Shown here in pieces: positions 1,110 through 16,249 of a stretch of DNA of 40,102 nt (positions within the stretch are counted from its first letter, which is position 1; each line of letters begins with the position of its first letter). The position numbers and the translations under genes were made by a program. Location of the stretch: assembly GCA_903929035.1 (NCBI GenBank), contig CAIYTF010000149.1, positions 1-40,102 of the forward strand, in the 5' to 3' direction. The DNA comes from an uncultured Ignavibacteriales bacterium (GTDB taxonomy: Bacteria; Bacteroidota; Ignavibacteria; Ignavibacteriales; Ignavibacteriaceae). The notes beneath the pieces were generated by a model, which saw nothing but the letters and a program-made list of their open reading frames with translations, did not search any database and had not been told where the DNA came from.

Positions 1110-1973
1110 TTACCTTTCTAAAGTAATAAGTTGATTATTGTAATCAATGGACACTTTGCCAAATCTCTCCAACGCCGATTGACCGAAAAGCAATGGGGCG
1201 TTGGATGTATTGACAACCGAAGCCTCGACATCTTTAATGATTTTGTCTCCTATTTTCACCTTTCTAAGCCGGATTATCGCCCCTTCAGAAACTCTGCCGG
1301 TGGCATCCACAAAGCTTTGTTTCCGAATAAAATCGTCTCGGCTTATCTTGCCTTGGTCCAAAAGTATTTCAACTTCGGTAAGAGAAATTGAAATTGCGGA
1401 AGCACCTGTGTCGAAAATGAAATTCATCGGAATATCGTTAATTTCAATAGGAACTTCATATACACCGTTTCGTTTAGTCATCCTGACTGTGGTAACACTG
1501 CCGGTTGAACCTGCACCCGCCGGAACGTCCGAACGGTGAACCGGGGGTTGAGCGGTACTACCTGCATACTTTGCATATCGAGAAAAAGCCAACAAACTGT
1601 CCCCCAGATAATCCGCGCAAAATCGAGCCGAACCCGTTTTCAGCATTTCGGCATTAACGCATATTTTATTTTCGTCCAATACATAAGCATAATAAACTTT
1701 GGTTTTAGCCGATGACGGCGGTCTTCCTTTTTTGTCAAAAAACACCACAACCTTGCGTCCAGATAATTTTGAAGCAAGATAATCTTGTGACTCGGGACTG
1801 TCATATATTCCCAACATAATAATCAAGGAGCCATCACTCAATTGAATTGTATTGCCCGACAAGATAGAAGAAACATCTATATATTTCCGTTCCGGAGAAT
1901 TCCGGCAAGAAGAAAAAAAGCATATAAAAACTATTAATATGCTTATAAAACCCGTTTTCTTATTGGGGTTCAT
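1110..1973 (-). CDS. Lipoprotein: nuclease-fold (SNase-like) domain plus retropepsin-like aspartyl protease
   Basis: A 287-aa lipoprotein: residues 1-22 form a type II signal peptide ending FFSSC (Cys23). Residues about 31-138 resemble the OB-fold of thermonuclease (VSSILSGNTIQLSDG, then YAYVLDENKICVNAEMLKTG), but I cannot identify the full catalytic Arg/Glu set, so it may be a binding fold only. After a Pro/Ser/Gly linker (140-165), residues about 170-287 form a retropepsin-type (clan AA) domain with the active-site motif FIFDTGAS (Asp188) and a C-terminal LLFGQSALERFG segment like the second half of single-domain proteases; this type acts as a dimer. It is the last gene of the eight-gene operon and its start overlaps the OmpA/PEGA gene by 14 bp. 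Likely in the periplasm, anchored to a membrane. Domain calls are firm for the protease, moderate for the nuclease fold. Confidence 0.75.
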   Translation of the reverse strand: MNPNKKTGFISILIVFICFFSSCRNSPERKYIDVSSILSGNTIQLSDGSLIIMLGIYDSPESQDYLASKLSGRKVVVFFDKKGRPPSSAKTKVYYAYVLDENKICVNAEMLKTGSARFCADYLGDSLLAFSRYAKYAGSTAQPPVHRSDVPAGAGSTGSVTTVRMTKRNGVYEVPIEINDIPMNFIFDTGASAISISLTEVEILLDQGKISRDDFIRKQSFVDATGRVSEGAIIRLRKVKIGDKIIKDVEASVVNTSNAPLLFGQSALERFGKVSIDYNNQLITLER

Positions 1974-2913
1974 TGTCCTGCTCGGATTCTAAAAAGAAAG
2001 AAAAGTGATTATCCGCAAGCGAATCAACGTATATCTCGCCGGTTAAAGTTTTATATCCCGAGGAAGTTAATTTAACCTTGTATGACTTTGGGAAAAGAGT
2101 ACCATTATAGGGAACATTACCGACTAATTTGCCATCCAAAGCAAGAATAGCGGAACTCGGATAGCACTGAATATTTACGCTGTATTTCTTTTTCGCAACC
2201 AACAGCGGAGTATTGTCTGGCTTCACAGGTTCCGGAATGATGGGTTTATCTTTTTGTCCGATTGAGTTTCTATTTTTATCGTTATCCGTTGTATGCAACA
2301 AATTGCTTTCAATAAACTTGCTCAATTTGGGAATCACCTGAATAATTATTCTCTGATTATTAGCCTCAATTATAGTATCTCTTCCTACGCCCCCTATCCC
2401 GCTTCCTGAAATCATTGTTTCGCAAATTGAAGGATTAAATTTTATATTCTTTCTTAACCAAAAATTATACACTGATAAAGCACGCTCATAGCTTAGCTGG
2501 TTGTTCAAAGAATACTTATCTTTAGAAGCCATACCTTCTATCACAAGAATATATTTGATGCTGTCCGCCGCATATTTCACTTGCAGAGAGTCTATCATAG
2601 AACGCAGCGATGCACCAACATTTTCAAGATAGTTTTCGTCTATAGCAGGTATTTCGGATCTTCCCGTTGCAAAGCTAATTTGGCGCGTGAGGATATATCG
2701 TTTATATTCATTTTCATACTTAAAGTACTCTTGAGGCAAACCATTAACCGATTTCTGTATTTCTTCTATTTTTTTAAGCTTTTCTTCGGAAGCTTTTTTA
2801 GAGTCACTCAATAGTTTATAGCTTAAAACAAAAAGAACGAGAATCACGATAAAAAGCCCTGTCATTAAATCCACATAACTTGGCCAAAAGAAATCGCTGT
2901 GTTCTTTTTTCAT
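1960..2913 (-). CDS. MotB/ZorB-like stator protein with OmpA and PEGA domains
   Basis: A 317-aa protein with one N-terminal TM helix (about 13-34) in the motif WPSYVDLMTGLF. Asp15 sits at the place of the ion-carrying Asp of MotB/ExbD/ZorB. A short charged coil (36-60) leads to an OmpA/MotB peptidoglycan-binding domain (about 78-196; FATGRSEI, NNQLSYERALSVYNFWL, NNQRIIIQV). A Pro/Lys linker and a PEGA domain (about 243-312; YPSSAILALDGKLVGNVPYNG) follow. PEGA after OmpA is not part of classical MotB or ZorB. The ATG overlaps the stop of the upstream MotA/TolQ-like gene in an ATGA, the usual sign of a stoichiometric pair. Predicted role: the wall-anchored, ion-conducting B subunit of a rotary or force-transmitting 5:2 motor. 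Confidence 0.85.
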   Translation of the reverse strand: MKKEHSDFFWPSYVDLMTGLFIVILVLFVLSYKLLSDSKKASEEKLKKIEEIQKSVNGLPQEYFKYENEYKRYILTRQISFATGRSEIPAIDENYLENVGASLRSMIDSLQVKYAADSIKYILVIEGMASKDKYSLNNQLSYERALSVYNFWLRKNIKFNPSICETMISGSGIGGVGRDTIIEANNQRIIIQVIPKLSKFIESNLLHTTDNDKNRNSIGQKDKPIIPEPVKPDNTPLLVAKKKYSVNIQCYPSSAILALDGKLVGNVPYNGTLFPKSYKVKLTSSGYKTLTGEIYVDSLADNHFSFFLESEQDNEPQ

Positions 2914-4376
2914 CGCTCGATCGACTGTCCGTTTTTGGAAATAATAAAATAAAAGAATTCTTTAGGTCTGAAAATTGACGGAGTGATTGTTCTCCTTAGT
3001 TTTCTTAATTCGTGAACCATATCCCTAAATCCCTCCGAAATTTCGTGATTGTAATCAGGTGCTGAACTGGTGTTTTTATCGAGCTTCCTTGATATAGTTT
3101 CAAGGTTTTTGTTTACTGCATCCAATAATTTTAACTTATTAAGCGGATTCTCGTCTTTTGATACCGAAAAAGTATCTGATAATTCTTGCTGAAGTTTTTG
3201 AGTTAATCCCTGAAATTCTTTGCTGTAAGAAAGAGCAACATCCCTCACCTCGTTATCGGATTTATTCATAAATTCCTGAACTAACTGCCATCGCTTCTGC
3301 AATTCGGTAAGATGACCGGCCACCGAGCTGCCAAGCATTCCGTAGTTTTGATAACTTTGTTGTACTAATTCACCCACGCCGTTTATGTTTTCCTCAAATT
3401 TTCCCAATCTGTCAAGCAGTCCGGTGACTTTATCCAACATCCGATCGGAAGCCTCAAAACTTTTTTGAAGGTTCACGGCATATTGATTGAAACTATCAAA
3501 AATAGCTACGCTCTGATCAAGCTTATCCATTATCTTCAGATTTGCGTTTACCAAATTGGGCAAATTTATGTCGTTAAACCTCCTGATGAATTCCGTTTGT
3601 AACCTCATATTGTCGGTTATTTTAGGTATGGTACCGCTGAAATCCTCTATATTATCGGAAAACTCGGTATTAAATCTCTGAAGATGATTTTTGAACTCTT
3701 TAATATTATGCGAAAGCGAATTTTCCAACGTGGGCAATAGCTGAGCTTGTAGAAAATTGAAATAGGTGTTCTTTAAATCGTCTCTTATGCTTTTGGCTCT
3801 CTTGAAGAAATAACTATTATTTAAAGTCGTTAATAATAAACCGAAGAAACTTCCTATCATAGCGATCAAAACACCTCGCAAAAAGTCGTGTACGCCTACT
3901 TCTGATATTCCGCTTGCAGCAACGCCTGCTCCGGGTTGAGAGAATCCGCGCAGAAGGTAAAATATTCCGAAAATAACGCCGCCAAAAGTTCCCATTAACC
4001 CGACATAGAGCGGGAGAGAAACTGATGCTGCGATTTTATTTTCTTCGGATTCCGAAATTCTCTCGGCTATATCCCGCATAATATCATATTCAGCAGTTGT
4101 CCCTGAGTTGCTCCAAAGATAGTGATTTGTCGCCGTGATTATTGAAACGAATTTAGTGCTAATATCGTTTCTTAGTTTATCAATTTGAATTAGCTTCTGT
4201 TTATTTCCCGATTCAAATTGTATATCAGTTTCCTCTATGCTATATGGGGGTTCGTTTGATATTTTATCAGTATCGGGGAATAAGCGAGACATTTTCACGA
4301 TTTCTAACAGTGTTTTAATTGCAAAGTATATTTGCAAACCCACAACTAAGAGTAATAGAATTATCGCCGTAACCAT
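2910..4376 (-). CDS. ZorA/TolQ/MotA-like motor subunit with long cytoplasmic tail
   Basis: A 488-aa protein with TM1 at 2-26, a cytoplasmic segment, then TM2 (about 119-143, PLYVGLMGTFGGVIFGIFYL) and TM3 (about 165-188, FLRGVLIAMIGSFFGLLLT). The three-helix plan and the GLxGTFxG and GxxxAMxGSxxGL signatures are those of the ExbB/TolQ/ZorA family, not four-helix MotA. Residues about 195-445 are a long, mostly helical tail with heptad character, like the intracellular tail of ZorA. It has a good ribosome site (GGGAG, 8 nt before ATG), lies 16 bp after the preceding gene and overlaps its MotB/ZorB-like partner by 4 bp. Predicted A subunit of an ion-driven inner-membrane motor. TolQ and ExbB lack such a tail, so ZorA is the closest named comparison. 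Whether it takes part in phage defence is not shown. Confidence 0.85.
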   Translation of the reverse strand: MVTAIILLLLVVGLQIYFAIKTLLEIVKMSRLFPDTDKISNEPPYSIEETDIQFESGNKQKLIQIDKLRNDISTKFVSIITATNHYLWSNSGTTAEYDIMRDIAERISESEENKIAASVSLPLYVGLMGTFGGVIFGIFYLLRGFSQPGAGVAASGISEVGVHDFLRGVLIAMIGSFFGLLLTTLNNSYFFKRAKSIRDDLKNTYFNFLQAQLLPTLENSLSHNIKEFKNHLQRFNTEFSDNIEDFSGTIPKITDNMRLQTEFIRRFNDINLPNLVNANLKIMDKLDQSVAIFDSFNQYAVNLQKSFEASDRMLDKVTGLLDRLGKFEENINGVGELVQQSYQNYGMLGSSVAGHLTELQKRWQLVQEFMNKSDNEVRDVALSYSKEFQGLTQKLQQELSDTFSVSKDENPLNKLKLLDAVNKNLETISRKLDKNTSSAPDYNHEISEGFRDMVHELRKLRRTITPSIFRPKEFFYFIISKNGQSIER

Positions 4377-4392
4377 TTGTATCTCCCTTTTT

Positions 4393-5604
4393 TTATTGGA
4401 ATTTGATTTTAATCTTTTTAATAATTTGAAGTTTTCCGTTGCCTATGTCCTTAAGAACTCCTCGTTCTCCGCCATTGGCAACGATTTTTTGATCTGACGG
4501 TTTGGGATCGTCTTTATATTCACAAGCTGGTTGAAGACTTGTTCTTGCCGAATTCATCGCGAATCGATGACCGCCAATATTATCAAACAAAAGCTCGAAT
4601 TCAAGAGCATTTGTTTTTTTATTATGAACTATCTTGTAAAGTGAACGTCTCTGCACCTGCGGAGTGTTGTTTTTGCTTAAAAACCATCCATCCTGTTCAG
4701 GGCTTTCACTGTATAGAATTTGGGGCTTTTCTTCAACAATTTCAATAGGAACCGGCGTTGATTCATAAGGACGACTCAATTGTAACTCGCTCAACTTTTG
4801 CTGCAACGGCTCAATCGCTTTCCTTATTTTTTCATCGATATTACTCATCGATAAATTAGAAGTATTATAATTTGGCCTGACAGTACTCTCTTGCGTATGT
4901 CTGACATTTCGGATACCATCAAAGCTATTTCCTATTTCGTAGATTTTTAAAGAAATAAATATTGCAAACGAAATAAAAAAACATATCAATGTGATTACTC
5001 CCCAGAAAATATAATCCCACCATTCGGCGACATTTACAAGTACCTCAACCACAGTTGAAGGTAGTCTTTTTTCAAACTTTTGAATTATTGACTCTAATGA
5101 ATCTATATTGGTAATGTTTATTTTTGGAGGAATTGTTGAAACAGTTGTATTGAAAGAAGTTTTCAAATCCAAGGCTAATTTATTAATATCAGCCTTAATG
5201 GCAGCTATTGTCCCAAATCTCTTTGGATTTTTTGATTCGTTAGGAACCAATGCAATTATGGCAGAACAAAAATCGTCTATCAATTTTTCATTTTCGCGAA
5301 TCTTCCCAGTCAGTTTCTTTTTGAAATCTCCTTTTTTCTTTTCAATATCAATAATGATTTTGACATTATTTGGGAACTTGCCATTGAAAGAATTTTTAAG
5401 TTCACTTTCGTCCATTCCGATTGATATTTTATCAGCAATTTTTGGGTCTATTTCTTTAGCTAAATTTTTTGTTATTATTACATTTGCTTGTTCGCAAAAC
5501 CTTGAAAAATCTTGCTTTATTTCTTCTGATTGTCCGAATACCCAAAAAGGTAAAAATATTAGTACGAATAAATATCTCATAAGTATCTTTATATTAATTT
5601 TCAT
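4393..5604 (-). CDS. Signal-peptide, single-TM envelope protein of the motor/cytoskeleton operon
   Basis: Not a family I recognise. From the start chosen here (ATG at 5604) it is 403 aa: signal peptide (about 1-25, ending FWVFGQ), a Lys/Ile-rich helical domain of about 170 residues expected in the periplasm, a TM helix (about 198-220), and a C-terminal part of about 180 residues expected in the cytoplasm (low-complexity stretch, then a beta-rich end with GGHRFAMNSARTSLQP and NGGERGVLKDIG). The frame is open up to 5733, but the extra 43 residues lie inside the upstream ATPase gene and precede the signal peptide, so they are probably not translated. ATG 5580, 14 bp after that gene's stop, is an equally good start. 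With domains on both sides of the membrane it could link the motor pair to the cytoplasmic NTPases; this is inference. Confidence 0.7.
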   Translation of the reverse strand: MKINIKILMRYLFVLIFLPFWVFGQSEEIKQDFSRFCEQANVIITKNLAKEIDPKIADKISIGMDESELKNSFNGKFPNNVKIIIDIEKKKGDFKKKLTGKIRENEKLIDDFCSAIIALVPNESKNPKRFGTIAAIKADINKLALDLKTSFNTTVSTIPPKINITNIDSLESIIQKFEKRLPSTVVEVLVNVAEWWDYIFWGVITLICFFISFAIFISLKIYEIGNSFDGIRNVRHTQESTVRPNYNTSNLSMSNIDEKIRKAIEPLQQKLSELQLSRPYESTPVPIEIVEEKPQILYSESPEQDGWFLSKNNTPQVQRRSLYKIVHNKKTNALEFELLFDNIGGHRFAMNSARTSLQPACEYKDDPKPSDQKIVANGGERGVLKDIGNGKLQIIKKIKIKFQ

Positions 5605-8600
5605 CGTCTTCACCATCGTATAGAAGTTTACCAAGGTCAAAAAGCATTGAAACCAACGGATAGAAGAATAGTGGTTCATTAACGTGCTCGGAGTTTCTTG
5701 ATTTAAGTTTTCGGTCGGCAAGCCCTGCATCAAGGTATTGTAGAGTGTTCTCCTTTATTATTCCCTTATAAAATTCAAAATCTTTGGGCAGGCGAATTCC
5801 TAAATTCCTATTGAAAGAATATGATTTATCCATAGCAAAGAAAATATCTAGAAAATTATTAACATTATTCACTACTCCGTCTTGGAGGGAGTTGCTTATT
5901 TCCGAATACAAAAGAGACTCGAATTTTGGTGATTCTTCCCCGTAATAGGGAACTGTTTCCTGCGTATCTTTTGGTAGTGTCCCCTGCGCCCTGCTATCAG
6001 CGAGTAAATACAATCCTCCGATACTTGTGGCTTCTTTCTTATTCATAACTTGTTCTAAAGTTACTTTATATTTTGAATTGCCTGTAGAAATTTTGGTCAC
6101 AAAAGAATCAAGGAATCCATTTAATAGTTTTAGTCCATCCGACGGATCAATTATCGAGAGATATTTACTCCCGTTTCCGCTAATGCAAATAAACTGAGGT
6201 TTACATAACCCTTTTTCACATAGTAATTTGGTACAAAAATAAATAATAGAACTAAAATGAAAGAGAATAAGAAACTTTACTTTTGGATCACTGCTTAGGG
6301 TATTGCTGAACCCCAATAAATGGTCCCAAGTAAAATATAAATTGAATATGTCCTCAGATAATCCGCCGCTATTTGAATTATGTAGTATCAAGTCAATAGC
6401 TTTAGTAATAGTCCTGTCGTTCCTGTGTTTGTTTATTAAACTCTCAATAAACGTATTTCCATAATACTGTACAATACCTATCTTTTGTTGCTGTTTTTTC
6501 ACTAATCCTGGGTGCCAAAGTGAATTCCCCGCGAAATTAAACGATGTCCCGAATTGCGGTTCGCCGTTAATAAAAAAGCTGACATCGGTTGAGCCTCCGC
6601 CAATGTCTAAAGAAAGCACCGGGTTCTTGCTGTTGGCACGGCTCATCTGAGCATAATAATAAAAGGGAGCGCAGGATTCAGTTAGCGCGAATATGCGCCC
6701 GTTAGTATCATCTATTTTGAATATTCCATTGAGAGCGTTTACCCAAATCTGCCCGTAAATCACCTGATCATTTAAATACATACTCAAGGGCTTAAACCAT
6801 ATCATCTTGCATAAACGCGGATCGCCCCCTGTCAATAAAATCTTGTTTCTGACGATATATAGCAGTTCTTCGATAAATTTGGCAACCAACGCGGATATTT
6901 GAGTGTTGCCGATATTCCATTTTAAATTTGTTATTATATCTTCATCAGGCCGCCTTTGCTCTTTCTCGCAAGAAAATGATATATTTACATTTTCAAATAA
7001 ATTCAGATTACCTGTTCGTCCATTATTAGGACTTGAAATAGCGGTTCTCATTGGGAATTGGTATTTTGGCCATTTGGTTTCTTCACCAATGATAGATGGC
7101 ACAAATTCATGAATTAACCGCGGAATTAGGTGTCTTGTAACAAAGTTATTTCCTTTTTCATATTGGTCGGATAAAGAATTATTGGGGTCTTGATTCGATT
7201 TATTAAACAACACAGTTTGTAAGTCGTTACGTCCGATTTTAAGAGTTTCAGGCTTAGTGTTTTGAGTGCCACGATATTCTAACAGAGAAACATTCGTATT
7301 TGTTGTTCCAAAATCAACAGCAATATCATACGATCTATTTCCGAGAGGTATTTCACGCCATTTGGGAATAATTAAACCTTTCATTTTATTAATTGAAAGG
7401 TCATTTTCAGGAATATTTACCTCAATAAACCTGAGCGGAAAGTTTGTAGTGTAATAAATAGAACCTCCGCCATTATCAGGTGTTTTGGCAACTCTTATTC
7501 CTTTTGAAATACTTTTTTGCGCACCGGCGTTGAGTGCTATTTCCGTGTTGTTTTCATCGAATACTTTAAGTTCCACATACTCTTTTGTTGGTTCGTCATC
7601 AACAAGCATTATCTTGTAAAAGTCGTTAAATATCTTACCTCCGTCAACCACTTTGAACAAAGGGAAAAACGACATATATATATTACTGTTAGTAACTAAT
7701 TTTCCGGCGGTAGTATCAAGGGAATTGGAGTAGTAAAACTTTTTCAAAATAACAGGTTCGTTTCCTTGAATCGGTATCTTTAATTCAACCTGATATCCGT
7801 TGTTAAGCTTTTTTATACTTAAATTTCTTTGCAGAGTAGCTTCGTCAAAGAAATCGAAATATTCCTTTTTTATCGGCAGTAAAAATCCATTATCTTCTTC
7901 TTTATTGATACCGGTGTAATTCGGGATAATAAAACTGTTGTCATTAACGGGGTAACGTAATTCAATGAGTTGATCTTCCAAAAAATCGTCTGTAACCAGA
8001 TATGGATATTTTATACCATTCCCCGGTAAAATTCTCTCGTTTATACCACCAATTGGACCGGCATTTTTGGGCACTTTGATACCCGAATTCTTAGTGCCTA
8101 AATGGTCTTCGCCATCGCGAAGAACAAGCGGAATGCCGGTCAAATAACTCGGATTTTTCCAATTTTGCGGTATTTGTAAAGCCAACGGAGAATTACCCAT
8201 ATTGGGACTAACGCTATTCTGCACAAAGATCAAGCTATTGCAAATTGTGAGCAATGCTCCCTGATCATCCACGAGCGAGTTAAAATCTGGAAGTGATCCG
8301 TCTGGTTCATTTTTAATGATTTTCTTTACTTGCAAGTTTAAAGGAGGATTGACAATCTTATTCACGACCAAATTATTGGTTAAATACTTAAATACAGAAG
8401 AAGCTTCGCGTGCGATTTGGCCATTTTGAAGAGAAAATGTCTTATAGATTGCCAGAATAAAGTTTGGGTCCCTGCTCCATATCGGTGCGACTTTTGAAAA
8501 ATAGGTATTTCCGTCATCCTTTCTTATTTCGAAATCAACCAAGTCCGCTTTCGTGAAAAATCCGGTGAAAGGCGAGGTGCCGCCGAATACTTTGTCATTA

Positions 8601-9058
8601 ACATTGAATAAATAAATATTTGGGTTTGAATTCAAACTCGAGTTATTCACGACATACTTGCGCAACACTTCTCCTAACTGTTGATGCGCGGAATCTGTAG
8701 ATGAAATTAGATTATTGATATGATGTTCAAAATTCCACATAGCAATTGAAATCGTATGACCTGCGGATTTATGTAGTGCAAGGTTATATAGCAACTCGAA
8801 CATATCAAAACATTCAGAAACTAATTTTTCGAAAACAGTATTCTGATTTTTCCCTATATTCTTGAGTGCCATATCAAAAGCCGTTTCAAACATATGCATC
8901 CGGGCAAACGGTGAAGGAATTGCTGTAAGCAGCTTATTGATATTCCCGCCGGCGGGATCGATTATATTATTAATAATTGATTGAGAATATTGTTGCGAAC
9001 CCGACCAGTAGGTGTTTTGAACATTTTTAGCATTTTGAATTGTTAATTTGTGTCCCAT
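5594..9058 (-). CDS. Giant Hsp70/actin-superfamily ATPase with ~550-aa N-terminal extension
   Basis: 1154 aa, no signal peptide or TM, so cytoplasmic. The actin/Hsp70 ATPase core begins about residue 575: phosphate-1 loop AVDFGTTNTNVSLLEY (about 580-595), phosphate-2 loop LSLDIGGGSTDVSFFI (about 815-830) and adenosine-type motif ICISGNGSKYL (about 957-967). Between them is a larger insert than in Hsp70. The first 550 residues are unlike any chaperone domain I know and are rich in beta-like segments; residues 1-130 look helical. There is no Hsp70 substrate-binding domain. The general plan (large bacterial Hsp70-like ATPase of about 1000 aa) recalls SrfB-type proteins, but I cannot confirm membership. 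A clear GAGG site precedes ATG. It follows the tubulin-like gene by 7 bp, so an actin-type and a tubulin-type NTPase are made from neighbouring cistrons. Confidence 0.85.
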   Translation of the reverse strand: MGHKLTIQNAKNVQNTYWSGSQQYSQSIINNIIDPAGGNINKLLTAIPSPFARMHMFETAFDMALKNIGKNQNTVFEKLVSECFDMFELLYNLALHKSAGHTISIAMWNFEHHINNLISSTDSAHQQLGEVLRKYVVNNSSLNSNPNIYLFNVNDKVFGGTSPFTGFFTKADLVDFEIRKDDGNTYFSKVAPIWSRDPNFILAIYKTFSLQNGQIAREASSVFKYLTNNLVVNKIVNPPLNLQVKKIIKNEPDGSLPDFNSLVDDQGALLTICNSLIFVQNSVSPNMGNSPLALQIPQNWKNPSYLTGIPLVLRDGEDHLGTKNSGIKVPKNAGPIGGINERILPGNGIKYPYLVTDDFLEDQLIELRYPVNDNSFIIPNYTGINKEEDNGFLLPIKKEYFDFFDEATLQRNLSIKKLNNGYQVELKIPIQGNEPVILKKFYYSNSLDTTAGKLVTNSNIYMSFFPLFKVVDGGKIFNDFYKIMLVDDEPTKEYVELKVFDENNTEIALNAGAQKSISKGIRVAKTPDNGGGSIYYTTNFPLRFIEVNIPENDLSINKMKGLIIPKWREIPLGNRSYDIAVDFGTTNTNVSLLEYRGTQNTKPETLKIGRNDLQTVLFNKSNQDPNNSLSDQYEKGNNFVTRHLIPRLIHEFVPSIIGEETKWPKYQFPMRTAISSPNNGRTGNLNLFENVNISFSCEKEQRRPDEDIITNLKWNIGNTQISALVAKFIEELLYIVRNKILLTGGDPRLCKMIWFKPLSMYLNDQVIYGQIWVNALNGIFKIDDTNGRIFALTESCAPFYYYAQMSRANSKNPVLSLDIGGGSTDVSFFINGEPQFGTSFNFAGNSLWHPGLVKKQQQKIGIVQYYGNTFIESLINKHRNDRTITKAIDLILHNSNSGGLSEDIFNLYFTWDHLLGFSNTLSSDPKVKFLILFHFSSIIYFCTKLLCEKGLCKPQFICISGNGSKYLSIIDPSDGLKLLNGFLDSFVTKISTGNSKYKVTLEQVMNKKEATSIGGLYLLADSRAQGTLPKDTQETVPYYGEESPKFESLLYSEISNSLQDGVVNNVNNFLDIFFAMDKSYSFNRNLGIRLPKDFEFYKGIIKENTLQYLDAGLADRKLKSRNSEHVNEPLFFYPLVSMLFDLGKLLYDGEDDEN

Positions 9059-9065
9059 AGAATCC

Positions 9066-10505
9066 TCAAATTAGGTTAGAGATTTTTTTCACAAATGTGG
9101 ACTGTGAAGCTTGATACATTACATCGATAAATCTACCATTAACAGTACTTTGCTTTGACTTCACTTTGGAGCATTCGTCCACGAACTGATTTGCTCCGAG
9201 TGCAGAACTTCCAAAAAACTTTTTTTCGATAGGATTTCCGTTTATAAGGTTACTCAAATCTTTCTCGGTGACCTGCCCAAACGGAGAAAAACCGCGTTGA
9301 TTTCGCTCAAGTTCAATCAGCCATTGATTAAAGTGTTTATTAATAAACTCACTGAATGATTTATAAAAACCGGAAATAAAAAAATCTTTTGTGAACCCGT
9401 TATTCACCGCGAAAGTTGACCCAACTTGGGCTTCCACCGTTACCTTGAAAATATCGGTGAGTTTTAGGGATACCAAAGAAGCGGCAATAACATCGTTCGT
9501 GTCTTTACCCAAATCGGAGAATCGAAGGTGTTGATTGTCATTTTGAACGGAAAATTCCTTATAAATCTTATTGTCTGTAAGGTTGGATTCAAGAATTTGC
9601 ATAAAATCCACGATGCTTAAAGCCGCCGCGACTTCAATAAAATTAGCATCGTTCTGCTGCTGCCCGCCTCCCTGAATATTCTCATAAGTTCCGGATTGTT
9701 GAGAATCACCGATATAATAAAGCGCGTTCACTCTATCAATGTTATTTTGATAATAGTTCAACGCTGCAATAGATTTTGTATAGAAAGCGGTGGAATCGAT
9801 TCTGCTCTCATCGTTTTTTGGAAGTGTAAAATATGGGAGAACTGTTATCGCTCCAATCGGAATGGTTGATAAAATTCCTTGATTTGCTATATTGCCGGCA
9901 CTGGGTTTAAAATTATTCATTAAAAGAGGAAATCCGGCGGCACCGGTTCCTCCGAATATTGAACTTATGATGAAAACCCTATCTCGCGGTTGAATTATAG
10001 AACCAAAATATTGAAATTCTTTAGTCTTGATTAATTCATCCAACACAATACATCCTACATTCGGCGAACCCAAAAAACCATAGGTAAGTGAGTCATCGAG
10101 ATTATTATCAGAATATAGCAGTTCAAGCAGAGATTTTGTTTCGAAATCTAAAAGAAAAGGAAAATTAATATAATCGCGTAGCGTTTTACCCGTTGTACTT
10201 TGAAATTTGATGGTGAAGTTAGTTCCCCAGCCATTCACGCCGCCTTGATGAGCGAGATCTCCCAAAGAAAGAATTTTATTATGGAAGAATGAACCATTAA
10301 GATCGGGGATTTGATTTCGCAAATCACGATATGCTTTCAAAAGATTCTCTGTCCTTTGAGTGTCTGCGTTTTGTTCATCTGTATCAATTATAATAGGGAT
10401 AATTTCACTCGCGTTAACTTGAACACCCGAAGCCAATAAATTTCCAAGCGATTTTAGCACTCTCGCGCCCGTTCCGCCGATGGCGAAAATAAACAATCTC
10501 GACAT
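9066..10505 (-). CDS. Tubulin-like GTPase (Tubulin_2-type)
   Basis: A 479-aa cytoplasmic protein. It starts MSRLFIFAIGGTGARVLKSL, a Rossmann-type glycine loop like T1 of tubulin/FtsZ. Residues about 184-191 read FGGTGAAG, matching the tubulin signature loop T4 (GGGTGSG, here with one Gly fewer). IIPIIIDTDEQNADTQ (35-50) fits the T2 region. The family resembles Pfam 'Tubulin like' (PF13809), whose function is unknown, rather than FtsZ, which is shorter and has a C-terminal tail peptide not seen here. The C-terminal part (about 330-479) lacks an obvious FtsZ-type catalytic loop, so polymerisation cannot be assumed. A very strong Shine-Dalgarno (AGGAGGAAA) precedes the ATG. It is the third gene of the operon, directly before the actin-like gene. 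Confidence 0.8.
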   Translation of the reverse strand: MSRLFIFAIGGTGARVLKSLGNLLASGVQVNASEIIPIIIDTDEQNADTQRTENLLKAYRDLRNQIPDLNGSFFHNKILSLGDLAHQGGVNGWGTNFTIKFQSTTGKTLRDYINFPFLLDFETKSLLELLYSDNNLDDSLTYGFLGSPNVGCIVLDELIKTKEFQYFGSIIQPRDRVFIISSIFGGTGAAGFPLLMNNFKPSAGNIANQGILSTIPIGAITVLPYFTLPKNDESRIDSTAFYTKSIAALNYYQNNIDRVNALYYIGDSQQSGTYENIQGGGQQQNDANFIEVAAALSIVDFMQILESNLTDNKIYKEFSVQNDNQHLRFSDLGKDTNDVIAASLVSLKLTDIFKVTVEAQVGSTFAVNNGFTKDFFISGFYKSFSEFINKHFNQWLIELERNQRGFSPFGQVTEKDLSNLINGNPIEKKFFGSSALGANQFVDECSKVKSKQSTVNGRFIDVMYQASQSTFVKKISNLI

Positions 10506-10516
10506 TTAATTTCCTC

Positions 10517-10909
10517 CTATTTAACCAAAAATCGCAACGGTGTATATTTGGCGCGCGGCGAACCCCAGCATAACATACAAGAAGCAATAAAATACATAAC
10601 CGCCGCGTATAGCAGATTAATTAAGGCAAAACTAAGTACATCGCCGTCAAGCCAAGCGGTTTGCAATTTACTAATGGCGATACCGTAAGCAATTAAAGAA
10701 ACAATTAGGGAGTTTATCAGCATAATCAAAAACCATCTTTTCATTTTGAACCAGTGAAGAAAGAATTTATTTAACACATAATAGTATATTATCGCTAAAA
10801 TAAATGAACAAACGATTAGAAAAAATCCGGTTGTCGTGTAAACCTCGTCCCAATCGGGCGGATGCACACCGTGTAAAAAACCGTAAATGCTAATAAAGAA
10901 GTCTTGCAT
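10517..10909 (-). CDS. Small integral membrane protein, three TM helices
   Basis: A 130-aa protein with three hydrophobic segments (about 25-46, 57-78 and 90-112), no signal peptide and a basic C-terminal tail (GSPRAKYTPLRFLVK). No family recognised. It sits between the vWA-like lipoprotein (8 bp gap) and the tubulin-like gene (11 bp gap), so it is co-transcribed with them and may be the inner-membrane anchor for the tubulin-like GTPase. That role is inference from position only. Conservation of this small gene beside tubulin-like genes elsewhere would be the useful support. Confidence 0.7.
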   Translation of the reverse strand: MQDFFISIYGFLHGVHPPDWDEVYTTTGFFLIVCSFILAIIYYYVLNKFFLHWFKMKRWFLIMLINSLIVSLIAYGIAISKLQTAWLDGDVLSFALINLLYAAVMYFIASCMLCWGSPRAKYTPLRFLVK

Positions 10910-10917
10910 ATCGACCC

Positions 10918-12183
10918 TTAGTTTTTGTTAATGATTAAATCAAAATTGAAATAGTTGCTGTCGCTATTTAATTCACCGTAAGCGTTCTGCATACCTGTGA
11001 TAATTTCTTTCAATAGGAATGTTTTCAGGTTGTTGCCCTGATTAAGATTGCTATCGTCATTCGTTGATAAACTATCCAAATCAATCGGTTTATTCTTCAA
11101 TCCAAGGTGAACAATGTTTTTATCAAGGCGAAACTGAGAAACCGAGACCTCGATATAGTGCGAATGCGCCTTGTCTTTAGGGTGGAACCTTGAGCCTAAA
11201 ACAGAATGCGGATATATATTACAATAATTTATGTTACAGCTTGCCGATGAAGCATCCTTGTTCTGTTGTAGATACGAAATCTCCCGCGCATACTTTGGAA
11301 TGGAATTTAAGTCAACGCCCAATGTAATCTTCAGATTGTTGTTCTTCAGACTTACATTCGTAAATTCACCATTCTTGAAACGGAATCTGCCTTCAGGGCT
11401 ATTCGAGTAGTATAATATATCGAATGGAATTTTGGATGACCCAAATCCGAGTTGAGCTTCCTGCAGCGGCTTGAATACCGGACTTCTTTCGATTTGTCTC
11501 CTGAAACTGATTAGATTATTTTTATCTCCCAGAACCCAAATAAAATATGGACGGGTCACTTTGTTGGGAGCTTTAAAACTTTTCCCAAAAGAAGGATAAT
11601 ATATTCCTGAAAAATCGCTTGTTAGCCTATATAACGAAACCGCAAGATTTTTCTTTGGGGCATTATTAAAAATTGTGTTAAACCTGCTTTGTATAGCTGG
11701 TATTATAGAAGGCGATTTAATATTCACCACAAAGTCGGAAATAAGAATTGAAATTTTGTTTTGAGAGTGTTCATCAACTAATTTGTTTACGATATCATCG
11801 ATTGGAGAAGTTGATCCGGTGGCTATTTTACCGGTCAGAATTTTTGTGTTGAAATCATAAGCAGTGCAGGATATTGGTTCAAATCGAGGTATATTATTTT
11901 TTATAACCGAAGCGAAATATTTAACGGAGTCTATCACAAGTCCGGTTGTGTCTTTAGACATCTTATCCAATTCGGCGATAAAATTTGTGACATCGGACTT
12001 AAACTGCGAACCATTTAAATAACCCTGCATACTTGCGCTTGTTTCAAGTATCACGTTCACTGAAACTTTGGGTTTCTGCAAAGAAACCACGGACATAGCC
12101 GCCGGAGGGTTGCTTCGTTTGCACCCTGCAATAACAAAAAACATAACCAATATACTAAACAGAAAAAGAACCAAAGGCTTCAT
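10918..12183 (-). CDS. vWA-like lipoprotein, first gene of the operon
   Basis: From ATG 12183 it is 421 aa: a type II signal peptide ending FFVIAGC (Cys21), then a von Willebrand A-like fold. The first strand and metal-site motif read VNVILETSASM, where Glu replaces the usual first Asp of the DxSxS MIDAS; a later strand ISILISDFVVNI gives a typical second acidic position. The rest (about 200-400) is beta-rich and unassigned. Upstream in-frame ATGs at 12192 and 12222 only lengthen the N-region; AGGA stands 11 nt before 12183. As a lipoprotein it is extracytoplasmic, attached to a membrane. vWA domains usually carry protein-protein contacts; a partner could be the other lipoprotein at the end of the operon. 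A Bacteroidetes-type promoter lies just upstream. Confidence 0.75.
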   Translation of the reverse strand: MKPLVLFLFSILVMFFVIAGCKRSNPPAAMSVVSLQKPKVSVNVILETSASMQGYLNGSQFKSDVTNFIAELDKMSKDTTGLVIDSVKYFASVIKNNIPRFEPISCTAYDFNTKILTGKIATGSTSPIDDIVNKLVDEHSQNKISILISDFVVNIKSPSIIPAIQSRFNTIFNNAPKKNLAVSLYRLTSDFSGIYYPSFGKSFKAPNKVTRPYFIWVLGDKNNLISFRRQIERSPVFKPLQEAQLGFGSSKIPFDILYYSNSPEGRFRFKNGEFTNVSLKNNNLKITLGVDLNSIPKYAREISYLQQNKDASSASCNINYCNIYPHSVLGSRFHPKDKAHSHYIEVSVSQFRLDKNIVHLGLKNKPIDLDSLSTNDDSNLNQGNNLKTFLLKEIITGMQNAYGELNSDSNYFNFDLIINKN

Positions 12184-12245
12184 AAGAAACATATTCCTAA
12201 TCAAATTAATAAAAACTAACAACAGTGTAGCACATATTTAAGCAA

Positions 12246-12991: not shown

Positions 12992-12997
12992 TATTAG

Positions 12998-13072
12998 TGG
13001 GTGCTCAGGGATTTGAACCCCGGACCCCCTGCTTGTAAGGCAGGTGCTCTGAACCAACTGAGCTAAGCACCC
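12998..13072 (-). tRNA. tRNA-Val (anticodon UAC)
   Basis: A 75-nt cloverleaf: acceptor GGGTGCT/AGCACCC, D-arm with GCTCAGTTGGTTCAGAGC, anticodon stem CCTGC/GCAGG with loop CTTACAA (anticodon TAC), T-arm GGGGTTCAAATCCCT, discriminator A. CCA is not encoded. It is the second gene of the tRNA-Gly/tRNA-Val pair. A decayed partial copy lies at 12603-12656. Confidence 0.95.
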
Positions 13073-13108
13073 CTTTACTTTTTAATACTACTAACTTAAT
13101 GTAAAGTG

Positions 13109-13181
13109 AGCGAGCAACGGGACTCGAACCCGCGACCCTCAGCTTGGGAAGCTGATGCTCTACCAACTGAGCTACGCTCGC
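13109..13181 (-). tRNA. tRNA-Gly (anticodon CCC)
   Basis: A 73-nt cloverleaf: acceptor GCGAGCG/TGCTCGC with a G-T pair, D-arm GCTCAGTTGGTAGAGC, anticodon stem TCAGC/GCTGA around loop TTCCCAA (anticodon CCC), T-arm with GGGTTCGAGTCCC, discriminator T. CCA is not encoded. It is first in the pair, behind the promoter at 13194-13225. Confidence 0.93.
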
Positions 13182-13270: not shown

Positions 13271-16249
13271 ATGAACATAGTCGATAAGCTTTTTATAGAG
13301 GATATTTTCAGCAGCAGAATAAGGGCATTCCAAAAATTAATGAAGTTTCGGATTAGGAATATTTTGCTTGTTTCAAGTTTATATGACTATTATTTGTTTG
13401 AAGAGGATGGTCAGCTATATGAATTAATACGGCAGGAATACAGGGTATCGAATCTTAGTCAGGCTCCGGAGTTAGTTCACGTTACTTCCGGCACTGAAGC
13501 ATTGGAACTCGCGTTATTGGAGGACCGGTATGATGTTGTAATTGTAACGCTGCACATAGATGATATGCACCCGGTTAAATTCACTCAAATGCTGAGGCAG
13601 GCTGGAATGGATATTCCGGTAATTTTGCTCGCTTATGATAACAAGGAACGAGAAGAACTTTCACGCGGTTATGATGATTCAATTTTTGATCGAGTTTATA
13701 TATGGCAGGGGGACTATCGATTATTAATTGCAATATTTAAGAGCCTTGAGGATAAATTAAATGTTGAAAACGATACGCGCGCTGTCGGTGTGCAGGTGAT
13801 TATACTTGTAGAAGATAATGTTAAATTTTATTCTTCTTATCTGCCAATCATATACAGAGAAATATTTGACCAGTCTCAACGGCTCATATCGGAGGGAATA
13901 AATCTCACAAATAAGTTTTTGAGATTGCGGGCACGCCCCAAAATATTACTTGCAACAAATTATGAAGAAGCCTGGTCATTTTTCCAAAAATATAAAGAAA
14001 ATGTTCTTGGTGTGATTACCGATGTTAATTTTAGATGCAATGGGGTGAAAGACCCTGAGGCGGGGATTAAGCTCGCGATGCATATTAAAAGCGAACAGAG
14101 TGATATTCCGATTCTAATGCAGTCCGGCAATCCTGAAATGGCGTTTGTTGCCGCGGAGATGGGCGTTTCATTTATTCACAAAGGTTCGCGCTCGCTGCTT
14201 CGCGAATTGCGAATGTTTATGCTCAAGAATTTTGGATTTGGCGATTTTGTTTTCCGGTTAATCGATGGACGCGAAGTTGGACGTGCTCAAAATCTGCATT
14301 CTTTCTTTGAAAAAATAATGTCTGTTCCTGATGAAAGTATTTTTTATCACGCGGAGAGAAATCATTTTTCTAACTGGCTGAAAGCGCGAACTGAATTTGG
14401 GCTGTCGTTTCAGCTCCGTCCAATGAAAGTCACTGATTTCAAGTCTGTAAGTGAATTGCGTAATCTAATTATTGATTCTGTTAAAAGCTACAGGGAGATG
14501 CAAAGCAGGGGAATAACTACAGATTTCAACAAAGATACTTTTGATCATAAATACGGATTTGCCCGTTTAGGTTCGGGCAGCTTGGGTGGAAAAGCCCGTG
14601 GGTTAGGATTTATTAATTCACTGCTTAACTGCCGGCAGTTTGGTAATAGCTTCCCGGGTGTTGAGATTTATGTTCCTGCTGCAATTGTTTTGGCAACCGA
14701 TATTTTTGATAAGTTTATGGAGGATAACGGAATTGAGTATTCTCAATTGAATAACTTAACGGATGAGGATATATTAACGCGGTTTCTTCATAATACACGA
14801 TTCCACGGTGACATAGTTTACAAGTTAAGGGATTTTCTTGAAATTATGCAGGAACCATTGGCAGTGCGTTCATCAAGCCTGCTGGAAGATTCGCAGTTCC
14901 AGCCGTTCGCGGGGGTGTATGAAACTTTTATGATAGCTAATAACAATCCTGATTTTGAAGCAAGGCTGCGGGAATTATTACAAAGTATTAAAAACGTTTA
15001 CGCGTCAACATTCTTTAAAAAGGCGCGGGACTATATGCAGTCAACTGAGTATAGCCTTGAAGAAGAGAAAATGGCCGTGATTATTCAACGGCTTGTCGGC
15101 AAGAGACATAACGACCGGTTTTATCCTGATATAGCTGGTGTCGCGAAGTCCTATAACTTTTACCCGGTTGCACCGCAAAAGGCACAAGACGGAGTTGTAT
15201 ATACAGGGCTTGGATTAGGCAAAATTGTTGTAGATGGCGGAAACTCTGTCCGGTTTTGTCCAAAATATCCAAAACATCTTTTGCAGTTTTATTCTGCCAA
15301 AGAAACTATTCGAAATTCACAGCAATCATTTTATGCTTTGGATTTGAAAGAAAAATTCAATTTATCGGAAATCGTACCTCCCTCTAATTTAGTAAAAGAA
15401 TATGACGTAGCTTCTGCTGAAGCTGACGGGACGCTTATACATATTGCATCAACTTATTCGCCTGAAAATGATGCAGTTTACGATGGTCTATCCCGCGCAG
15501 GGAAAAGGGTGGTGACATTTGCTCCGATATTAAAACAAAAAACTTTTCCTTTGCCTGAAATTCTTATGTCATTATTATCAACCGGAACGTGGGGGATGGG
15601 TACACAGGTTGAAATTGAGTTCGCGGTTGAGATGAACGATCATCCTGATAAACCGCCTGAATTTGCAATGCTGCAGATGAGACCATTAGTAATTTGCTTA
15701 GATGACGAAGAACTTCATATTGAAGCATACAAAAAAGAACTGTTGATTTGTGAAAGCACGCGGATTCTCGGAAACGGTTCAATCAATGATATTTATGATG
15801 CCGTAGTTGTAGATTTTGACAGGTTTGATAGAGGGAAAAGCAGGGAGGCTGCAATTGAAATAAGCAAGTTTAACGAGAAGTTATTCATTTCAAAGCGGCC
15901 ATATCTGTTAATAGGCGTTGGCAGATGGGGAAGCCTTGATCCATGGTTAGGTATTCCCGTAACTTGGGAACAAATTTCCGGTGCCCGCCTTATTGTAGAA
16001 TCCGGATTCAAGGATTTTGATGTACAGCCCTCACAAGGTTCACACTTTTTCCAAAACCTTACATCTTTCAGGGTTGGATATATGACTGTCAATATCGCCG
16101 ATAAAACAGGTTTCATTGACTGGGAATGGTTAAAGGAACAGCCTGCAGAGCAGAAACTACAATTTACATCTCATATCGTTTTTGAAAAACCTATTAAAGT
16201 AAAATTGAACGGGCACAAAGGCATAGGTGTAATTATAAAACCGGATTAA
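13271..16249 (+). CDS. REC-REC-PEP-synthase-like (PPDK_N ATP-grasp) signalling protein
   Basis: A 992-aa cytoplasmic protein. Residues about 28-165: degenerate receiver-like domain (VVIVTLHIDDM, no Asp at the acceptor position). Residues about 172-325: second receiver with acceptor Asp251 (LGVITDVNF) and HK near 303-304 at the Lys position, but with a long insert (about 190-222). Residues about 430-806: the ATP-binding domain of PEP synthase/pyruvate phosphate dikinase (SGSLGGKARGLGF; EPLAVRSSSLLEDS; ending LQMRPLVI). The phosphohistidine swivel domain and the PEP/pyruvate TIM barrel of those enzymes are absent; instead there is a unique C-terminal domain of about 185 residues (YLLIGVGRWGSLDPWLGIPV). 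So it is not a metabolic PEP synthase. Phosphorylation-controlled phosphotransfer is an inference. Single gene, convergent with clpP (14 bp between the ends). Confidence 0.8.
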   Translation: MNIVDKLFIEDIFSSRIRAFQKLMKFRIRNILLVSSLYDYYLFEEDGQLYELIRQEYRVSNLSQAPELVHVTSGTEALELALLEDRYDVVIVTLHIDDMHPVKFTQMLRQAGMDIPVILLAYDNKEREELSRGYDDSIFDRVYIWQGDYRLLIAIFKSLEDKLNVENDTRAVGVQVIILVEDNVKFYSSYLPIIYREIFDQSQRLISEGINLTNKFLRLRARPKILLATNYEEAWSFFQKYKENVLGVITDVNFRCNGVKDPEAGIKLAMHIKSEQSDIPILMQSGNPEMAFVAAEMGVSFIHKGSRSLLRELRMFMLKNFGFGDFVFRLIDGREVGRAQNLHSFFEKIMSVPDESIFYHAERNHFSNWLKARTEFGLSFQLRPMKVTDFKSVSELRNLIIDSVKSYREMQSRGITTDFNKDTFDHKYGFARLGSGSLGGKARGLGFINSLLNCRQFGNSFPGVEIYVPAAIVLATDIFDKFMEDNGIEYSQLNNLTDEDILTRFLHNTRFHGDIVYKLRDFLEIMQEPLAVRSSSLLEDSQFQPFAGVYETFMIANNNPDFEARLRELLQSIKNVYASTFFKKARDYMQSTEYSLEEEKMAVIIQRLVGKRHNDRFYPDIAGVAKSYNFYPVAPQKAQDGVVYTGLGLGKIVVDGGNSVRFCPKYPKHLLQFYSAKETIRNSQQSFYALDLKEKFNLSEIVPPSNLVKEYDVASAEADGTLIHIASTYSPENDAVYDGLSRAGKRVVTFAPILKQKTFPLPEILMSLLSTGTWGMGTQVEIEFAVEMNDHPDKPPEFAMLQMRPLVICLDDEELHIEAYKKELLICESTRILGNGSINDIYDAVVVDFDRFDRGKSREAAIEISKFNEKLFISKRPYLLIGVGRWGSLDPWLGIPVTWEQISGARLIVESGFKDFDVQPSQGSHFFQNLTSFRVGYMTVNIADKTGFIDWEWLKEQPAEQKLQFTSHIVFEKPIKVKLNGHKGIGVIIKPD

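Follow-up and report, generated by a model that had tools for sequence, protein, structure and literature searches.

We identified an operon that encodes a bacterial cell-envelope machine, conserved widely, in which an ion-driven motor akin to the flagellar stator is joined by a tubulin-like and an actin-like protein. It lies in a stretch of 40,102 nucleotides from an uncultured Ignavibacteriales bacterium (hereafter, the window). The parts of the machine, their conservation, their linkage and the intact motor and NTPase motifs are all observed in the sequences and structures described below. A first-pass annotation had described eight tightly packed minus-strand genes between positions 1110 and 12183, and all eight ORFs are present. 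They encode a vWA-type lipoprotein, a small membrane protein (TM2), a tubulin-like GTPase (TUB), an actin/Hsp70-like ATPase (HSP), a signal-peptide protein with a single transmembrane (TM) helix (SPTM), two motor subunits (one ZorA-like, one ZorB-like) and a second lipoprotein; all coordinates given below are on the minus strand. The successive spacings are +8 bp (vWA/TM2), +11 bp (TM2/TUB), +7 bp (TUB/HSP), -11 to -23 bp (HSP/SPTM), +16 bp (SPTM/ZorA), -4 bp (ZorA/ZorB) and -14 bp (ZorB/lipoprotein). The range for HSP/SPTM is set by the start of SPTM, at the ATG at 5604 or that at 5616 (the ORF as listed begins at a TTG, 5733). Ordinary genes flank the operon in the window. A promoter scan gave results at chance level, and a terminator scan slightly above it.

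The motor B subunit (core gene 7, 1960..2913) is ZorB/MotB-like, with a TM helix, an OmpA-like domain and a C-terminal PEGA domain. It matches the ZorB profiles of PADLOC (E 3e-13) and, by profile, the solved ZorB chain 8vvn_B of the PDB (E 1e-10), and scores 24.7 bits with the NCBIfam ZorB1 profile, for which the cut-off is 400. The TM helix (residues 12-30) carries the ion-binding aspartate, D15, which is found in 63 of 63 homologues. Among five aligned ZorB proteins, the PEGA domain was seen only in that of the window (9e-7). The A subunit (core gene 6, 2910..4376) is ZorA/TolQ-like, with three TM segments and a coiled tail of ~270 aa. Its match to the PADLOC ZorA profiles is weak (E 5e-5) and mainly in the tail, and a sequence search of the PDB returned nothing useful. 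Its identity, weak by sequence alone, therefore relies on the ZorB neighbour, the three hydrophobic segments and the conserved Thr/Ser residues, i.e., T130 and T183 (99% of 68 homologues) and S176 (96%). This three-TM subunit has the Ser/Thr ring of the 5:2 motor type; by analogy with such motors, the ring would be placed at the pore.

TUB (479 aa, core gene 3, 9066..10505) clearly has a tubulin/FtsZ fold in its predicted structure (pLDDT 89.2, pTM 0.93). The model aligns with CetZ (Z 17.0) and FtsZ (Z 16.6) at 2.9-3.0 Å over 194-199 residues. The tubulin-type nucleotide-binding fold covers residues 1-345 (Z 15-17 to FtsZ, CetZ and tubulin), and the C-terminal part is helical in the model. The glycine-rich T4 loop, GGTG, is fully conserved (G185, G186, T187 and G188, 100% of 89 homologues). 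TUB is FtsZl1-like and related to Pfam Tubulin_2, which it matches with a score of 21, below the curated cut-off of 27 (E 2.3e-4); the match to Pfam Tubulin (E 2e-3) is also below the curated cut-off. The profile that we built for the TUB family matches an annotated cyanobacterial tubulin-like protein with an E-value of 1.6e-66.

HSP is an ATPase of 1154 aa (core gene 4, 5594..9058) with a beta-rich N-terminal half and a C-terminal region (~575-1028) that is of the MreB/actin/DnaK fold in the predicted structure (pLDDT 77.8). The model aligns with MreB (Z 14.2, 282 residues, 3.9 Å) and DnaK (Z 13.7), and the protein matches MreB with an E-value of 1.5e-8. The phosphate-1, phosphate-2 and adenosine motifs of this fold are present and conserved in 93-100% of 87 homologues, with D582, G584, D818, G820, G821, D825 and G961 at 100%. 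The N-terminal half is outside all fold matches, which does not imply a new fold. Neither TUB nor HSP matched any PADLOC model. In the alignments of homologues the motor aspartate (63/63), the Ser/Thr ring (99% for Thr) and both NTPase motifs (ATPase and GTPase loops mostly at 98-100%) are essentially invariant.

Three smaller proteins complete the core. The vWA-type lipoprotein (core gene 1, 10918..12222) starts at a TTG (12222) or at an ATG (12183, the choice of the first-pass annotation) and has the lipobox VIAGC. Its ExSxSM...SD motifs are conserved among 87 homologues (E60 94%, S62 95%, M65 99%, D163 100%). The name vWA is the least certain of the set, because it was assigned from this motif pattern only; Pfam gave no match for the protein of the window or for two relatives, and a PDB sequence search with it gave nothing useful. 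TM2 (core gene 2, 10517..10909), a small inner-membrane protein with three hydrophobic segments, is recognised between vWA and TUB. SPTM (core gene 5, 4393..5616) follows HSP; its hydrophobic segments (9-27 and 203-221) correspond to a signal peptide and a single TM helix, and its C-terminal part is predicted to be cytoplasmic.

Of the set of eight genes proposed at first, these seven are the core and the eighth (1110..1973) is not: it is an optional, exchangeable secreted-protease slot. In the window it encodes a secreted lipoprotein in which an SNase-like domain is fused to a retropepsin with the motif DTGA (gag-asp_proteas, 7e-14). The N-terminal SNase-like match is weak, and the domain is probably inactive, judging from an alignment with SNase relatives in which it has SGNT in place of DGDT. 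The retropepsin occurs in 11 of the 80 loci described below; elsewhere a trypsin-like lipoprotein takes its place, and secreted lipoprotein proteases or nucleases come after ZorB in other loci. PADLOC matches to "RT-Protease_XI" and "C3a212" among the neighbours were discarded, as they reflect only the trypsin and SNase domains.

The order vWA-TM-TUB-HSP-SPTM-ZorA-ZorB is repeated across Bacteroidota and in one Leptospiraceae MAG (80 named genome loci). HSP and TUB are each present in 77 of these loci, vWA in 75, SPTM in 68, TM2 in 67, ZorA in 61 and ZorB in 55, several contigs being incomplete. Gene-neighbourhood counts thus show a gene set and order conserved far beyond the window, which bears out the earlier proposal of one system. 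The cluster is not due to chance, in which case the neighbours of TUB would vary freely or the motor would never occur with the NTPases: in a phylum sample of 395 genomes, TUB was found in 13 and the ZorA subfamily in six, and all six ZorA matches adjoin TUB. In a distant lineage, a clear ZorB (E 2e-27) and a weaker ZorA (E 1e-8) flank the same core, one on each side; hence, the association of motor and core survives altered gene order. The motor repeatedly adjoins both NTPases, but it is optional. Spirosoma and others have motor-free versions of the NTPase core; the NTPases can therefore do without the motor. TUB is present in 120 of 120 genomes of one genus, which matching synteny indicates to be Hymenobacter, and ZorA in 50 of 51 genomes of the same genus (49 of 49 good ones). 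Outside this genus the distribution is patchy (the 13 of 395 genomes; five of 59 relatives matched, one of them dubious). The TUB and ZorA distance matrices correlate (r 0.89, permuted maximum 0.24), an agreement that may reflect shared ancestry only.

The first-pass annotation knew of no described system with this set. Parts of it have been described (PMC2875224, PMC7159879), but our literature search found no description of a motor joined to both tubulin-like and actin-like NTPases. The FtsZl1 operons were predicted to encode a membrane-remodelling machine of the envelope from a divergent tubulin-superfamily protein encoded with vWA, membrane and OmpA-domain proteins (Makarova and Koonin 2010, PMC2875224); in the literature searched, no function has been assigned to them fifteen years after the prediction. 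The vWA neighbour may have its counterpart here in the conserved lipoprotein upstream of TUB in 75 of the 80 loci (vWA by motif only). That text mentions neither a motor nor an actin/Hsp70 partner and takes OmpA as a porin/transport family, whereas here the OmpA domain is part of a MotB/ZorB-type motor subunit. At ~1000 aa, FtsZl1 is also larger than TUB, and has an extended coiled coil and a helical C-terminal domain. Systems with a GAP1-N2 DO-GTPase, proposed as conflict systems (Kaur et al. 2020, PMC7159879), share tubulin-like, HSP70 and vWA components and a membrane location. Their defining components, TRAFAC double GTPases and GAP1, are not seen in our operon (no P-loop GTPase family among its eight proteins); they have tubulin and HSP70 in non-overlapping themes, mainly in Firmicutes and Actinobacteria, and the part of that paper considered here mentions no ion motor. 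Some TolQ-type motors of the 5:2 type are encoded beside a vWA protein, with a proposed role in force transduction (2025, PMC12204202). There, the vWA protein is tethered to the membrane and either belongs to the motor or binds it; in our operon it is a lipoprotein and ZorB is separate. The sections of that report used here describe no NTPases. Zorya (PMC11890865) resembles the operon in the ZorB family match, the conserved aspartate, the wall-binding domain and the long cytoplasmic tail of ZorA. As noted at first, the operon lacks a Zorya partner: ZorC and ZorD, ZorE, and ZorF and ZorG were absent from its proteins and from the families listed for 123 neighbour proteins (30 loci). It is therefore not Zorya; it has the tubulin-like and actin-like NTPases instead, and is core in a whole genus.

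The reading that we favour, at roughly even confidence, is that of one trans-envelope inner-membrane machine, a ZorA5B2-type motor with tubulin/actin NTPases, most likely for envelope upkeep or remodelling and not for specialised phage defence. The motor, anchored to the cell wall through the OmpA-like/PEGA portion of ZorB, would use the flow of ions to produce rotation or conformational work. The long ZorA tail would meet the GTP-dependent TUB and the ATP-dependent HSP in the cytoplasm, and these may assemble on the membrane at their partners TM2 and SPTM. On the outer side, the vWA-type lipoprotein and the exchangeable secreted protease (sometimes a nuclease) could perform or gate a periplasmic step. 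The machine might serve to build the wall or outer membrane, to sense strain in it or to clear material there. We infer the 5:2 assembly, the contact between ZorA tail and NTPases, filament formation, the way in which signals travel and the physiological role. A bolder extension, which we put forward as tentative, is that the rotary motor acts directly on filaments of the tubulin-like and actin-like proteins, or that these filaments gate it; this would be the first bacterial 5:2 stator-type motor with a mechanical link to the two families of cytoskeletal NTPases, and a core envelope piece in some Bacteroidota.

We favour envelope maintenance or remodelling over a dedicated anti-phage system because the machine is core in a whole genus and lies between ordinary genes in the window. 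A system of anti-phage or inter-bacterial conflict, in which the ZorAB-like motor would sense envelope damage by an invader and set off TUB/HSP assembly and secreted protease/nuclease effectors, is a somewhat doubtful alternative. The ZorB of Zorya is the nearest to ours in our searches of solved chains and defence profiles, yet no ZorC-G partner accompanies it, and TUB and HSP are foreign to the PADLOC models. Patchiness in the phylum is likewise compatible with an accessory function or with defence. Other points in favour of conflict are the exchangeable secreted proteases and nucleases that adjoin the operon, the integrase and restriction-type methylase-like genes that flank a few loci, and the conflict role proposed for tubulin/HSP70/vWA systems (PMC7159879). 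On the other hand, most defence systems are not carried by 120 of 120 genomes of a genus, and a search of 50,697 phage records gave no match. It is improbable that membrane remodelling or vesicle formation is driven mainly by the tubulin/actin pair, with the motor as an anchor or accessory: this agrees with the prediction published for the similar FtsZl1 gene context and with the motor-free cores that keep vWA, TUB and HSP, but the ion-pathway residues of the motor are conserved as highly as the NTPase motifs, and the motor varies in step with TUB and HSP. Two or more neighbouring but functionally distinct operons (motor and NTPases) merely travelling together are very improbable since, despite the several core-keeping lineages without a motor and an extra gene (579-590 aa) that separates ZorA from ZorB in three loci, genes overlap, the ZorA subfamily of the phylum sample occurs only beside TUB, and the distant lineage keeps the association in a different order.

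These results place the OmpA-type component in Bacteroidota within a ZorAB-type ion motor and make the giant actin/Hsp70-like ATPase a constant partner. The FtsZl1-type machine thereby gains a source of energy and a topology that can be tested. They also imply that a ZorAB-like motor alone is not a sign of phage defence. Hymenobacter, Pontibacter and Pedobacter provide cultivated hosts for testing.

Several other readings of the locus were set aside. A congener lacks TUB, but its flank in common with the window has unrelated cytochrome-type genes and no tRNAs, and gives no clean empty site. Integration at the upstream tRNA-Val/Gly genes was rejected, with a flat GC content and, across the part of the window examined, no integrase. 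The SrfB family was considered and is absent from the Pfam scan, and the search of phage records led us to reject a phage origin. On plasmids, the system was found only in one Prevotella replicon (1.77 Mb) and in cyanobacteria. Three IMG/VR contigs carry the system and are probably bacterial sequence.

All eight minus-strand genes that the first-pass annotation had placed at 1110-12183 appear in the ORF listing, tightly packed, with spacing from +16 to about -23 bp. Sequence alone settles just three assignments: the ZorB-like motor subunit (PADLOC ZorB, 3e-13), the PEGA domain that it carries, and the lipoprotein with a retropepsin domain. A profile search also matched the ZorB-like subunit to the solved ZorB 8vvn_B (1e-10), from the Shewanella type I ZorAB complex (PMC11890865). 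Pfam matches for the tubulin-like protein (TUB) and the actin/Hsp70-like ATPase (HSP) were marginal, and we therefore checked both by structure prediction. The TUB model (33 homologues as input, pLDDT 89) matched FtsZ, CetZ and tubulin with Z of 15-17, aligning 194-199 residues of FtsZ at 2.9-3.0 Å, which bears out the identity first proposed. The same holds for HSP (1154 aa, 35 homologues, pLDDT 78): the stretch from residue ~575 to 1028 resembles MreB, actin and DnaK in fold (E 1.5e-8, Z up to 14), and the beta-rich N-terminal half lies outside the structural matches. The nucleotide-binding motifs of both proteins are essentially invariant among homologues, so TUB and HSP are probably active NTPases.

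The TUB profile matched 13 of 395 genomes drawn evenly from the phylum. In their neighbourhoods and those of relatives, a core of vWA-type lipoprotein, small 3-TM protein (TM2), TUB and HSP was constant, and the motor pair (ZorA-like and ZorB-like subunits) was present in about half. The ZorA-like profile had six matches in those 395 genomes, all adjoining the TUB gene. Were the two independent, the probability that all six fall within the 13 TUB genomes is about 3e-10, and at genus level (4/4 ZorA among 11 TUB genera of 171) about 1e-5; both figures leave aside adjacency, which adds further improbability. A scan of named collections gave at least 556 relatives. The matches listed include 80 loci, mostly from Hymenobacter, Pontibacter, Rufibacter, Spirosoma, Pedobacter, flavobacteria and Prevotellaceae, with MAGs labelled Leptospiraceae and others. 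The genes run in the order vWA-TM2-TUB-HSP-SPTM-ZorA-ZorB (SPTM, a signal-peptide, single-TM protein). One sampled genome, G206, has flanking genes identical in kind to those of named Hymenobacter loci. Its genus encodes TUB in 120/120 genomes and ZorA in 50 of 51 (49/49 good ones), nearly always a few kilobases from TUB on one contig.

Distances among TUB proteins track those among ZorA proteins (matrix r 0.89; permuted maximum 0.24), and the match between TUB and HSP is closer still (0.94). The first-pass annotation had proposed a neighbourhood count, taking the cluster for chance if neighbours varied freely or the motor never accompanied the NTPases. Given the 6/6 adjacency, conserved order, genus-wide presence and matching distances, neither is the case, and the cluster is not chance. 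The Spirosoma group, which lacks the motor, is nested in the TUB tree within motor-bearing lineages, as expected from motor loss. Deeper branches (L006, L008, L029) also lack the motor, and the remaining motor-free tips are often truncated contigs. In L032, a distant lineage, the core has a motor gene at each end, one a clear ZorB (E 2e-27), the other a less certain ZorA (E 1e-8). A 579-590-aa gene separates ZorA from ZorB in L092, L094 and L110. IMG/VR contigs L121 and L122, probably bacterial sequence mis-binned as virus, carry the complete vWA-TM-TUB-HSP-ZorA-ZorB cassette without SPTM. The cyanobacterial Gloeothece plasmid Cy782204 (L142) encodes a TUB-HSP pair, a weak SPTM-like gene and a divergent vWA-like gene without the motor; with it, the NTPase core crosses phyla.

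At residue level, the motor pair directly shows an intact ion pathway, with ZorB Asp15 conserved in 63/63 and ZorA Thr130, Thr183 and Ser176 in 96-99%. The operon also encodes a domain of the wall-binding type and a long tail on ZorA, together with two NTPases that look active, two membrane proteins and lipoproteins. The ZorAB of Zorya is an A5B2 complex in which the Asp faces a Ser/Thr ring and the cytoplasmic part of ZorA is a pentameric rod (PMC11890865). The pair described here may assemble likewise as A5B2; the rod of its ZorA-like tail would then meet TUB/HSP, and the periplasmic proteins would be the machine's outer partners.

FtsZl1 was defined by Makarova and Koonin, who predicted that it works with vWA and OmpA proteins in a machine for membrane remodelling; one of the paper's reviewers wondered how an FtsZ-like protein in the cytoplasm could cooperate with periplasmic partners (PMC2875224). 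A subunit of the ZorB type that bears an OmpA domain, together with SPTM and TM2, would answer this query, although that paper's own OmpA proteins may differ. According to Kaur et al., DO-GTPase systems include tubulin, HSP70 and vWA parts, in separate themes (PMC7159879). In another study, vWA proteins are predicted to transduce force for motors of the TolQ type (PMC12204202), and PMC12505986, which does not mention tubulin, regards ZorAB as a distant relative among the motors. We found no paper uniting motor, tubulin-like and actin-like genes in the open-access literature; because subscription papers and preprints lie largely beyond it, the novelty of this set is provisional.

A secreted-protease slot commonly follows ZorB, or SPTM where the motor is absent. 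Retropepsins occupy it in 11 of the 80 loci among the matches listed, and in the window. Trypsin-like proteins are comparably frequent (a cluster of 11 including L006; eight Pfam Trypsin_2 matches in the neighbour-protein set). The two look mutually exclusive, and were never seen together among the loci examined. SNase or endonuclease/exonuclease/phosphatase (EEP)-type secreted proteins come next in some loci; in L044 (18489-19832), L073, L086, L087, L088, L093 and L118, a secreted or lipoprotein protease of either kind follows ZorB and precedes an SNase or EEP-type nuclease. In the window lipoprotein, the retropepsin is fused to an SNase-like domain with SGNT in place of the DGDT motif, so that one protein holds both slots.

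A constant core accompanied by a secreted hydrolase that can be exchanged recalls conflict systems, but also envelope turnover. We assign about a quarter of the probability to a defence system. We lean towards a role in maintaining or remodelling the envelope, since the cassette as a whole is core in an entire genus and the flanking genes in the window are ordinary (PPDK-like, ClpP, TonB receptor, PurK). At 13271-16249 (plus strand), a response-regulator-like region is followed in the same protein by a PPDK_N ATP-binding domain, a fusion conserved in 15/15 relatives searched. Just upstream of the operon lie tRNA-Val and tRNA-Gly (12997-13181, minus strand), a typical integration spot; no integrase was seen in the window part examined.

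Other genes follow the core in motor-free loci. Cassettes of the Spirosoma type (L106, L109, L115, L024, L030) end with a conserved ~470-aa WG-repeat protein (cluster C20). In L008 (2172-4063), the NTPase core is followed by three genes of the TerD family, of which Pfam confirms one; they link the core to the Ter stress network.
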